NCBI RefSeq assembly: GCF_007671685.1
Contig: NZ_VCNL01000002.1
Coordinates: forward strand, 620,001 to 684,000
Direction: 5' to 3'
Origin: Halorubrum salsamenti
GTDB taxonomy: Archaea > Halobacteriota > Halobacteria > Halobacteriales > Haloferacaceae
DNA: 64,000 nucleotides
How positions within the stretch are numbered: the stretch's first letter is position 1; each line of letters begins with the position of its first letter. The position numbers were made by a program, and so were the translations under genes. The notes beneath the pieces were generated by a model. It saw only the letters and a list, made by a program, of their open reading frames with translations, was not told the origin of the DNA and searched no databases. This document shows, in pieces, positions 5,435 through 31,620 of the stretch.

Positions 5435-5806
5435 TCAGATCGCACCGAGCGACCGGACGAAGGGCACCCCGACCGCGTCGGTGACTCCCGCGAACGGGAG
5501 CACCGCCAGCACGAGCACCGCCGACGCCCACGCGACGAACCCGATGACCCCCGCGTGGACCCACGAGGTCCCGTAGCGCGCTCGAATGACCCATATCCAC
5601 GCGAGAAGCGGGACGAAGTCGCCGATCAGCGGGACCCACGAGAGGAAGAAGGCGGCGAGCCCCCAGACGATCGCGCCGACGAGCGCCGTGAACACGGCGT
5701 GGCCGTAGTCGCTCGCGCCGGTGACGACCGCGGCGGCGATGAAGATGGCCAGCCCGCCGACGAGCAGGCCGACGGCGAACGTGACCGCCGATCCGATGAG
5801 ACTCAT
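5435..5806 (-). CDS. Small multi-pass membrane protein
   Basis: 123 residues with three or four hydrophobic stretches (about 5-27, 36-55, 58-75, 84-105) and short loops; the segment SWVPLIGDFVPLLAWIWVIR is characteristic. Not recognised as a named family. It reads in the same direction as the PiT gene, 79 bases upstream of it, so the two might share a transcript. No catalytic residues are visible. Confidence 0.75.
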   Translation of the reverse strand: MSLIGSAVTFAVGLLVGGLAIFIAAAVVTGASDYGHAVFTALVGAIVWGLAAFFLSWVPLIGDFVPLLAWIWVIRARYGTSWVHAGVIGFVAWASAVLVLAVLPFAGVTDAVGVPFVRSLGAI

Positions 5807-5982
5807 GGTCGCCCGTTTCGAGGCGAGCCACTTGGGGGCGTCGCCGACGGATCGGAACCCCCCGCCCGCGACCTGCCCGCCCCTCCCCGTCGGCCACAGC
5901 CCGACAGCTGCTCCCGCGCGTCACCGGCGTGGGTTCGAGATCGAGTCCCCCCCGCGCGCCTGCCGGCGGGAGGCGGTGGCCA

Positions 5983-5990
5983 TTTATAAA
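5983..5990 (+). promoter_or_regulatory. TATA box of the XPB-type helicase gene
   Basis: TTTATAAA ends 20 bases before the ATG at 6011, the spacing expected for an archaeal core promoter with transcription starting at or next to the start codon. This fixes 6011 as the start and predicts a leaderless mRNA. Confidence 0.75.
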
Positions 5991-6010
5991 TCGGGCGGCA
6001 ACGTCCGGCG

Positions 6011-7441
6011 ATGAACGTCCGGCTGACCTACGAGGACGGAACGATCCGGGTCGCCGCCGGTGGCGCCGCTGACGACGGTGCGGGCGGTGTCGCCGGGGAC
6101 GGGGAAGCCGACGGCGACGCCCTCGAATCGCTCCCGCCGCTCCCGGGTGTCGAGAGCGATCCGCGGTCGGGGACCGGGCGCGCCCCGGCCCACCGCTACG
6201 CCGCGATCCGCCGGGCGCTGGAGGTCGCCGGGGTGAGCGTCGAGGATCACGTGCTAGACGCGAGCGACCGCGCCGCGGAAGCGGCCGGGCTCGGCGACGG
6301 ACTGTCGACCGACTACGACCTCCGGGAGTACCAGCGCGAGGCGCTCGACGCGTGGCGCGACGCCGGCGACCGGGGCGTGCTCGAACTCCCGACCGGGGCC
6401 GGCAAGACCGTGATCGCGATCCGCGCGATGGTCGAGTTGGGCGTGCCGACGCTCGTCGTGGTGCCCACGGTCGACCTGCTCGACCAGTGGCAGCGGGAGC
6501 TGGAGGCTGAGTTCGACGTCCCGATCGGGCGGTTCGGCGGCGGCGAGCAGCGGCGAGAGGCGATCACGGTGTCGACGTACGACTCGGCGTACCTGAAGGC
6601 CGAGGGCGTCGGCGACGCCTTCGAGTTCGTCGTCTTCGACGAGGTCCACCACCTCGGCGGCGAGGGGTACCGGGACGTGGCGCGCCTGCTCGCGGCCCCC
6701 GCGCGGCTCGGGCTCACCGCCACCTTCGAGCGCCCCGACGGCGCCCACGAGGCCGTCGCGGAGCTGATCGGCGACCGCGTGTACGCGCTCGACGTGGACG
6801 ACCTGGCCGGCGGCCACCTCGCGCCCTACGACATCCGCCGGATCGAGGTGGAACTGACGCCCGACGAGCGCGAGCGCTACGACGAGAAACAGGGGACGTT
6901 CGTCGAGTACGTCCGCGACGCGGGGATCACGTTCACGAGCGGGAGCGACTACCGGGAGCTCGCCAAGCGCTCGGGCAACGACCCGGCCGCGAGGGAGGCG
7001 CTCCTCGCGAAGCAGGACGCCCGCGAGATCATGATGAACGCGCGCCGGAAGATCGACCGCCTCGAGTCGATCCTCGACCGCCACCGCGACGACCGGGTGA
7101 TCGTCTTCACCGCGCACACCGACCTCGTCTACCGGCTCTCCGAGCGGTTCCTGCTGCCCGCGATCACCGCCGAGACGGGCGCGAAGGAGCGCCGCGAGAT
7201 TCTGGAGCGCTTCCGCGAGGGGACCTACGGCCGGGTCGTCGCCGCCAACGTCCTCGACGAGGGCGTCGACGTGCCCGACGCGAACGTCGCGGTCGTGCTC
7301 TCGGGGTCGGGCAGCGAGCGGGAGTTCACCCAGCGGCTCGGGCGGGTGCTCCGCCCGAAGGAGGACGACGGCCGGGCGGTCCTCTACGAGGTCGTCAGCG
7401 CGGAGACGGCGGAGGAACGGGTGGCGAGTCGGCGGCGATAG
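6011..7441 (+). CDS. XPB-type DEAD/DEAH helicase
   Basis: 476 residues. N-terminal domain 1-100, then SF2 motifs: LREYQREAL (Q-like, 104-112), Walker A LPTGAGKT (126-133), DEVHH (210-214), LTATFER (about 234-240), and in domain 2 VIVFTAHT, VLDEGVDVPD and motif VI QRLGRVLRP (441-449). Length and motifs fit archaeal XPB (Rad25), a DNA-opening ATPase in repair. In most archaea XPB is followed by the nuclease gene bax1 (DUF790); here the gene is followed by the repeat element at 7492 instead. Haloarchaea can carry several XPB paralogues, so this may be a secondary copy. Confidence 0.88.
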   Translation: MNVRLTYEDGTIRVAAGGAADDGAGGVAGDGEADGDALESLPPLPGVESDPRSGTGRAPAHRYAAIRRALEVAGVSVEDHVLDASDRAAEAAGLGDGLSTDYDLREYQREALDAWRDAGDRGVLELPTGAGKTVIAIRAMVELGVPTLVVVPTVDLLDQWQRELEAEFDVPIGRFGGGEQRREAITVSTYDSAYLKAEGVGDAFEFVVFDEVHHLGGEGYRDVARLLAAPARLGLTATFERPDGAHEAVAELIGDRVYALDVDDLAGGHLAPYDIRRIEVELTPDERERYDEKQGTFVEYVRDAGITFTSGSDYRELAKRSGNDPAAREALLAKQDAREIMMNARRKIDRLESILDRHRDDRVIVFTAHTDLVYRLSERFLLPAITAETGAKERREILERFREGTYGRVVAANVLDEGVDVPDANVAVVLSGSGSEREFTQRLGRVLRPKEDDGRAVLYEVVSAETAEERVASRRR

Positions 7442-27683: not shown

Positions 27684-30008
<2,325 letters not shown>

Positions 30009-30337
30009 TTAGTGACCTCAAATAAAAAGCTGGCTACTGTCGTCCGTGCCGCTTATTAGTTGGAAATTATCTTTCGACTTCATAAATAAGACTTTGAAAA
30101 ACCGAACCGCCATCGGGATGCCCCGCGGTCCCGTTCCGCGATGCCCCGCGGCCCCGTTCCGCGATGCCACTACTCCGGGTCAGCCCGCGGATCGAACTCG
30201 CCGTGTCGGATCCCCACTCTGACGGGCGTGTGTTCCGCGTCTGTCGGCGTCGAAACCGATCGCCGGCACATCACTCACCCATCCGGACGGGCGACGCGCA
30301 GTGGTCCCCCTCGATACCGGTCGACGGATCGGAAGCG

Positions 30338-30423
30338 GTGTCGATCACGGCCGGTCGAGCGGTGTCGATCACGGCCGGTCGAGCGGTGTCGATCACGGCC
30401 GGTCGAGCGGTGTCGATCACGGG
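30338..30423 (+). repeat. 24-base tandem repeat, three full units plus a partial
   Basis: Units at 30338-30361, 30362-30385 and 30386-30409 are identical (GTGTCGATCACGGCCGGTCG plus AGCG); a fourth breaks off near 30423. The unit length is a multiple of three and leaves open frames on both strands, which explains spurious repetitive ORFs here. It lies 35 bases before the regulatory motif of the DUF2249 gene. Confidence 0.85.
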
Positions 30424-30457: not shown

Positions 30458-30471
30458 CCGAACGTATTCGG
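30458..30471 (+). promoter_or_regulatory. CCGAA-N4-TTCGG inverted motif, DUF2249 promoter
   Basis: CCGAACGTATTCGG, an inverted repeat, 39 bases before the ATG at 30511. The identical 14-mer recurs at 31165-31178 and a variant at 31202-31213, each next to another gene start of this block. Confidence 0.65.
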
Positions 30472-30510: not shown

Positions 30511-30744
30511 ATGCCCAGACTCGACGTCCGCGAGATCCCGCCGGTGAACCGCCACGACAAGATCCACGAGGAGTTCGACGGGATGGAGCCGGGCGAAACG
30601 CTCACGATCGTCAACGACCACGAACCGAAGCCCCTGTACTACGAGATGGCGGCCGAGGTCCCCGCGTTCGACGAGGAGGCGTACGAGGTGCGACAGAACG
30701 CGCCCGACGAGTTCGTCGCGGAGTTCCCGAAAACCGAGGAGTAG
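30511..30744 (+). CDS. DUF2249 domain protein
   Basis: 77 residues from ATG 30511. Typical DUF2249 core: LDVREIPPVNRHDKIHEEFD, GMEPGETLTIVNDHEPKPLY, with the invariant RH, PGE and NDHxPxPL. These small TusA-like proteins are common near denitrification, heme and nitric-oxide genes in haloarchaea and bacteria; the biochemical role is unknown. Its neighbours, a HemA-domain protein and a truncated hemoglobin, fit that theme, and all three share an upstream motif. Confidence 0.88.
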   Translation: MPRLDVREIPPVNRHDKIHEEFDGMEPGETLTIVNDHEPKPLYYEMAAEVPAFDEEAYEVRQNAPDEFVAEFPKTEE

Positions 30745-30783: not shown

Positions 30784-31128
30784 CTACGCCTCGTCGATGT
30801 CGAAGAGTCGACGGATCGCTCGCGCTCGCTCTCGCTCCCGTCTCCCCGTCCTCTCAGACCGCTCCGCCCGCTCCAGCGCCTGTTCCGGGGCGTCGGTCAG
30901 CCCTTCGACGAGCGCGGCCCCGAGCTCGCGGACGGTCTCGCGCTGCTCGTCGGAGAGATCACCGCGCGCGTCGAGCTTCGAGATGGCTTCCTCGAGCTCG
31001 CACCGCTCTATCTCGGCAGTTTGACGGCGGAACCGTCTCCGGAGCTGCTCCGCGTCGAGCGATGGTTCGGACCGATCGTGTGTCGCCTCGGTCCGATCGG
31101 GAGCCGCTTCGAGGCTCTCGGTACTCAT
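30784..31128 (-). CDS. Stand-alone HemA C-terminal (glutamyl-tRNA reductase dimerisation) domain-like protein
   Basis: 114 residues from the ATG at 31128. After an acidic leader, QTAEIERCELEEAISKLDAR, GDLSDEQRETVRELGAALVE and GLTDAPEQALERA follow the order of the C-terminal helical dimerisation domain of haloarchaeal glutamyl-tRNA reductase (KLxARGDL(S/T)DEQRE..A.ALV..L...P...L). The catalytic and NADPH domains are absent, so it cannot make glutamate semialdehyde; it could bind HemA or act as a regulator. Assignment is from remembered sequence pattern. Convergent with the DUF2249 gene. Confidence 0.6.
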   Translation of the reverse strand: MSTESLEAAPDRTEATHDRSEPSLDAEQLRRRFRRQTAEIERCELEEAISKLDARGDLSDEQRETVRELGAALVEGLTDAPEQALERAERSERTGRRERERARAIRRLFDIDEA

Positions 31129-31201: not shown

Positions 31202-31213
31202 CCGAACATGTTC
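31202..31213 (+). promoter_or_regulatory. CCGAACATGTTC motif, truncated hemoglobin promoter
   Basis: Variant of the shared motif containing the perfect palindrome GAACATGTTC (31204-31213), 41 bases before the ATG at 31255. Spacing matches that of the two CCGAACGTATTCGG copies. Confidence 0.6.
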
Positions 31214-31254
31214 TTTCGGAGGCGTCTTCCGTCGGAACGAAGTTGATAGACGTG

Positions 31255-31620
31255 ATGTCTAAATCCCAGTCGATCTACGAAACAATCGGCGGCAGAACGG
31301 CCGTCGAGGCAGTCGTCTCGGACTTCTACGACCGCGTCTTCGACGATCCCGTCCTCGAGCCGTATTTCGAGGGTATCGACCGCGAGGCGCTGTACGCCCA
31401 CCAGGTTCAGTTCATCAGCGCGGTCGCCGGCGGCCCGGTCTCGTACGAGGGCGCGGACATGCGGGCGGCTCACGAGGGGATGGGAATCACCGAGGAGGCG
31501 TTCGGTCGCGTCGCGACCTACCTCGGAGAGGCGCTCAGGGAGAACGATATCGACGAAGGGGACGTCGAGACGATCCTCGAAGAGGTCGGCGCGCTCGAAC
31601 CCGACGTCGTCGGGCAGTAG
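31255..31620 (+). CDS. Group I truncated hemoglobin
   Basis: 121 residues from ATG 31255 (MSKSQSIYETIGGRTAVEAV). TrHb1 features: YETIGG, then VVSDFYDRVFDDPVLEPYF with the B-helix Phe-Tyr (F24, Y25), HQVQFISAVAGGP, and proximal His73 in AAHEGMGIT. Binds heme and small gases; in microbes usually detoxifies nitric oxide or handles oxygen. Longer in-frame starts run back through the promoter motifs and are rejected. Confidence 0.92.
   Translation: MSKSQSIYETIGGRTAVEAVVSDFYDRVFDDPVLEPYFEGIDREALYAHQVQFISAVAGGPVSYEGADMRAAHEGMGITEEAFGRVATYLGEALRENDIDEGDVETILEEVGALEPDVVGQ

Follow-up and report, generated by a model that had tools for sequence, protein, structure and literature searches.

Most prokaryotes rely on glutamyl-tRNA reductase (GluTR, HemA) to catalyse the committed step towards heme and B12. 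The plant enzyme is controlled through its dimerisation domain (PMC4726326). In Arabidopsis, the synthesis of ALA is controlled by the binding of proteins at this domain, as seen for FLU (4YVQ, 5CHE) and GBP (PMC4726326), and FLU, a negative GluTR regulator, was obtained in complex with the isolated dimerisation domain (PMC4726326; 4YVQ). A dimerisation domain on its own can thus fold and bind, and the domain is a known control surface. In Arabidopsis the free domain was made in the laboratory and the regulator FLU is a TPR protein, whereas the haloarchaeal free domain described below is natural. We know of no comparable control through the HemA dimerisation domain in archaea.

The second related system is the NarO/denitrification regulon of Haloferax, which has the same promoter motif and the same companions, a truncated hemoglobin and a DUF2249 protein, as the locus analysed here, with ahbD added in the literature. 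CGAA-X4-TTCG is reported to be essential for nirK transcription and to occur also at ahbD (PMC5746218), a variant form of the haloarchaeal denitrification/NarO motif is given as CGAAYATDKTYG (PMC10062603), and the truncated hemoglobin and DUF2249 genes of Haloferax mediterranei are described as induced under denitrification (PMC11218638). A keyword search of the main texts of the Haloferax denitrification papers found no mention of a stand-alone GluTR-domain protein.

The gene and its domain

The stretch of DNA analysed (the window) comprises 64,000 nucleotides of Halorubrum salsamenti. The features relevant to this study are listed below by window coordinates and strand.

27684..29831 (-), catalase-peroxidase KatG, a heme protein (PF00141, 234.5 bits)
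30459..30470 (+), CGAACGTATTCG motif, at -52 of the DUF2249 gene
30511..30744 (+), DUF2249 protein of 77 aa (PF10006, 84.1 bits)
31128..30784 (-), stand-alone GluTR dimerisation-domain gene with an ATG start, 114 aa
31166..31177 (-), CGAA-N4-TTCG palindrome CGAATACGTTCG (CGAACGTATTCG), at -49 of the stand-alone gene start
31203..31214 (+), CGAACATGTTCT, CGAA-N4-TTCG with one mismatch, at -52 of the truncated hemoglobin gene, read from the sequence
31255..31620 (+), truncated (bacterial-like) hemoglobin of 121 aa (Bac_globin PF01152, 77.7 bits, cut-off 21)

The initial annotation described the 114-aa product as a HemA dimerisation domain without catalytic domain, encoded next to a hemoglobin, and proposed a profile comparison as a check. 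The domain assignment, the missing catalytic part and the hemoglobin neighbour were all borne out. Residues 23-111 matched positions 19-99 of the 99 positions of the Pfam profile GlutR_dimer (PF00745) with 32.7 bits (E 9.7e-8; cut-off 22.9), while no Pfam match to a catalytic or NADPH-binding domain was found, and the globin profile confirmed the neighbour. The NCBIfam hemA model (TIGR01035) was reached weakly, through the same C-terminal part (15 bits versus a cut-off of 209.55). The domain content indicates that the protein is not a glutamyl-tRNA reductase, since the catalytic and NADPH-binding domains are missing. A separate full-length HemA is encoded once in the same genome (3.67 Mb), at C12:94350; BLASTP aligned only its C-terminal part with the 114-aa protein (43% over 67 residues, E 5e-11). 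Comparison of a profile of 20 homologs with one of 13 haloarchaeal HemA sequences yielded a probability of 99.2% over 74 columns, and PF00745 was matched individually by 20 of the 20 aligned homologs (E <= 0.01). An unrelated coiled coil, named at the outset as the result that would speak against the assignment, did not emerge from the profile searches and is ruled out by these matches. A sequence search of the PDB returned nothing useful for the 114-aa protein.

The stand-alone protein shares with HemA the domain and its core motifs. Core identity between each stand-alone protein and its own genome's HemA was 31-60% in the sequences checked and about 44% for the window protein, and the common columns include E, A, G, QR, L, L, P, L and LF. 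Relative to HemA, the stand-alone protein is a separate gene with its own promoter motif, and it has lost the YKRKRAD/MY stretch and, in the window's version, the conserved EDDW turn, together with the first 41 or so residues of the spinal helix; about 29 residues from the end of that helix are retained, along with the helices that follow. There is no conserved Cys and no His column common to more than 10 of 49 sequences.

AlphaFold2 models built with the 20 homologs (mean pLDDT 81.6) predicted a disordered N-terminus (residues 1 to about 25) followed by helices 26-54 and 60-108. HemA, modelled likewise, showed a spinal helix (290-359) and then helices 365-395 and 399-409, the last two of which correspond to the single merged helix 60-108 of the 114-aa protein. 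Owing to this merger, the dimer mode of the stand-alone protein may differ from that of HemA. With the start of the spinal helix and the EDDW turn missing, a HemA-like mode is not to be assumed. The best Foldseek match in the PDB, obtained independently of the Pfam result, was 4yvq_A, the Arabidopsis GluTR dimerisation domain, with a probability of 0.94 and a statistically weak E-value of 1.3; 5yjl and 5che were also listed, all with E-values above 1. Weak E-values of this kind are expected for a short helical protein.

Distribution and selection of the family

Stand-alone GluTR-domain proteins occur across the haloarchaeal order, with copies in Halorubrum, one other genus of its own family, and families f4, f5, f6, f7 and f17. 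Among 148 genomes sampled over the phylum as a whole, those outside the order that matched PF00745 did so once each, and these were HemA-length frames save for two short frames in less complete genomes. A homology scan of named genomes with a Halorubrum-only alignment recovered 12 loci, all from Halorubrum. A second stand-alone copy is present in the H. salsamenti genome itself (locus L052, C8:127-441). Its protein sequence is identical to that of locus L054 in another Halorubrum species (G312), where the gene precedes a NirK-family gene (NirK by clustering), and the identity suggests a recent transfer of a denitrification island. Several haloarchaea (G056:C1:3171999, G040:C2:366928, G031:C1:37125 and G055:C1:545589) have a further GlutR_dimer match whose frame is as long as HemA, which is likely a second full-length hemA.

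The stand-alone genes are under purifying selection: for genus g19 dN/dS was 0.07-0.18, and most Halorubrum pairs gave values of about 0.2-0.5, with higher values in a few close or short pairs. In a first tree, the stand-alone proteins formed one clade (98%), but once the columns of the spinal helix and of EDDW had been removed, no split separated them from HemA; the family may thus have a single origin or more than one. A viral origin was rejected, as a scan of viral contigs contained no relative and PHROGs matches appeared only at E > 0.1. The same applies to carriage on plasmids: the window protein and that of L041 had no plasmid match, and L032 had two weak ones to Halomarina plasmids. No description of a stand-alone or truncated GluTR protein was found in the open-licence literature; the family is apparently undescribed, in agreement with the earlier statement that such a protein has no described function.

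Promoter motif and gene context

The truncated hemoglobin gene is transcribed divergently from the stand-alone gene. The DUF2249 gene, a neighbour kept across the Halorubrum loci, is convergent with it, and KatG is also a conserved neighbour in Halorubrum. The same motif had been noted in front of the globin and the domain gene, and this holds, exactly for the latter and with one mismatch for the former. CGAA-N4-TTCG was not found before katG, upstream of its unrefined start codon. The region between katG and the DUF2249 gene also contains a 24-bp tandem repeat (AGCGGTGTCGATCACGGCCGGTCG, 3.7 perfect copies, 30334-30422), and a second short repeat array is located at 30117-30168.

In 14 Halorubrum loci, the window included, the distance from CGAA-N4-TTCG to the start codon is 49 bp, with a single case of 50 bp. 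It was also found at -50/-51 in L051, L084, L086 and L062, from two other families, if a GTG start is assumed; these starts were chosen with the motif in view and give weaker support. Counted in the window alone, the motif is not unusual (4 occurrences versus 2.18 expected), and its credibility derives from the fixed position in 14 orthologous loci rather than from this count. At the level of sequence, the window motif matches the published haloarchaeal denitrification/NarO motif, and we infer that the gene should be induced in Halorubrum at low oxygen or under denitrification. CGAA-N4-TTCG was not found in a 10-kb stretch with the HemA locus, which consists of an AhbA/B-like gene, a precorrin-2-dehydrogenase-like gene (both named by inspection of their translations) and hemA.

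The initial annotation further suggested a link to heme synthesis, which was strengthened by the loci in which relatives of the gene lie as well as by the denitrification motif. Halorubrum loci contain truncated hemoglobin and/or DUF2249 genes, a cupin-like protein (by inspection) and KatG, and in other Halorubrum loci (L043, L047) NirK was confirmed by NCBIfam. In families f5, f6, f12 and f17, the gene is located directly 3' of a gene for a TIGR04053 radical-SAM protein, for which AhbD and NirJ2 are the next best models. Protoporphyrinogen oxidase adjoins the gene in L051, L084 and L086 and lies downstream of it in L084 and relatives, and in the cobalamin cluster of L061 and L070 the order is CobN, stand-alone gene, CbiC, CbiE-type methyltransferase.

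Co-occurrence was evaluated in 88 sampled genomes, 27 of which were scored as carriers after matches had been classified by hand, with four uncertain genomes left out. In 12 of the 27 carriers, a TIGR04053 gene on the same strand is followed directly by the stand-alone gene; in one further carrier, G088, the stand-alone gene lies about 0.5 kb 3' of such a gene. NirK is present in 22/27 carriers and 21/61 others (p 6e-5) and TIGR04053 in 23/27 carriers and 30/61 others (p 0.002), p-values that ignore the kinship of the genomes; inclusion of the four uncertain genomes changed them to 7e-4 (NirK) and 2e-4 (TIGR04053).

Several other genes were recorded near the loci. Families of membrane proteins of about 430-450 aa (L043:2875-4230 (-)) and of proteins of about 180-215 aa (L043:917-1537 (-)) recur beside them; neither has an NCBIfam match, and relatives in L066 and L063 gave no Pfam match. 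Identification of the membrane protein as Nor-like was abandoned, as it had no Pfam or NCBIfam match, and a copper protein of about 292 aa near the genus g19 loci was rejected as NirK because NCBIfam assigns it to the multicopper oxidases, with a score below the NirK cut-off. Directly downstream of the stand-alone gene in L062, a 354-aa protein with four DUF2249 stretches is encoded (5658-6719 (+)). In L064, the TIGR04053 gene ahead of the stand-alone domain is itself closely preceded by a gene for a CGCGG family putative radical-SAM-modified RiPP (TIGR03995; 3946-4299 (+)).

Proposed role and alternatives

The neighbourhoods of the gene have tetrapyrrole supply in common, and the single enzyme that lies upstream of heme as well as B12 is HemA, which makes an accessory protein directed at HemA the simplest reading. 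The best-supported explanation, to which we give somewhat less than an even chance, is that the protein is induced anaerobically, assists or regulates tetrapyrrole synthesis, and works via the dimerisation fold of GluTR, most probably through contact with HemA. An activator bound to CGAA-N4-TTCG would switch the gene on at low oxygen or under denitrification, together with heme proteins, and the ratio of stand-alone protein to HemA would rise, because HemA is not under the motif. The protein would then bind HemA through the shared dimerisation surface, either in a mixed dimer or by capping the HemA dimer, and change its activity, stability or partners, such that ALA supply is adjusted when the cell switches to making heme by the anaerobic (Ahb) route or to making B12. 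The gene with its domain, family, motif and surroundings is shown by the data above; both the binding of HemA, already proposed in the initial annotation, and an effect, up or down, on ALA synthesis are speculative, and a negative regulator would be odd at a time of rising heme demand. The fuller proposal, that an oxygen-regulated free domain in mixed HemA complexes sets the flow of ALA to heme and B12, is possible but on balance doubtful.

The main alternative, which we regard as unlikely though worth serious attention, is a homodimer that reuses the dimerisation fold to scaffold or connect other enzymes of tetrapyrrole synthesis or heme proteins, with the TIGR04053 radical-SAM protein, protoporphyrinogen oxidase and CobN as candidate partners, and does not bind HemA. 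The gene indeed adjoins enzymes of later heme and cobalamin steps rather than hemA, and the absence of the spinal-helix start and the EDDW turn suggests a changed assembly; yet the hydrophobic and glycine/proline core common with HemA is kept at the identities given above, and the neighbours vary from lineage to lineage, as would be expected if the protein had a shared target, for example HemA, rather than one constant partner encoded nearby. By analogy with the Arabidopsis domain, which binds FLU on its own, the free domain might also act as a decoy or reservoir that titrates a regulator or protease adaptor which normally attaches to this domain in HemA, thereby protecting the enzyme. This would agree with an increase of the protein relative to HemA if the motif works, but its partner is hypothetical and we consider it improbable.

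A heme or metal sensor with direct ligand binding would be in keeping with the adjoining heme proteins, but the lack of a conserved Cys or widely shared His column makes it very improbable. We give hardly any credence to a functionless, degenerate remnant of a duplicated hemA. In its favour are the truncated form of this paralog, the moderate dN/dS (0.3-0.5) of many Halorubrum pairs, and two Halorubrum copies (L046, L089) that seem to be cut short at the 3' end. Against it, the domain is conserved at similar length across several haloarchaeal families, selection is purifying, the promoter motif is kept at a fixed position, and the gene is placed repeatedly in tetrapyrrole and denitrification loci.

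If the HemA-directed role is true, it would represent a post-translational control of archaeal tetrapyrrole synthesis that is made from a fragment of the enzyme itself. The conserved free domain in heme, cobalamin and denitrification loci, combined with an anaerobic motif, provides a specific candidate for the matching of tetrapyrrole supply to respiration in haloarchaea.
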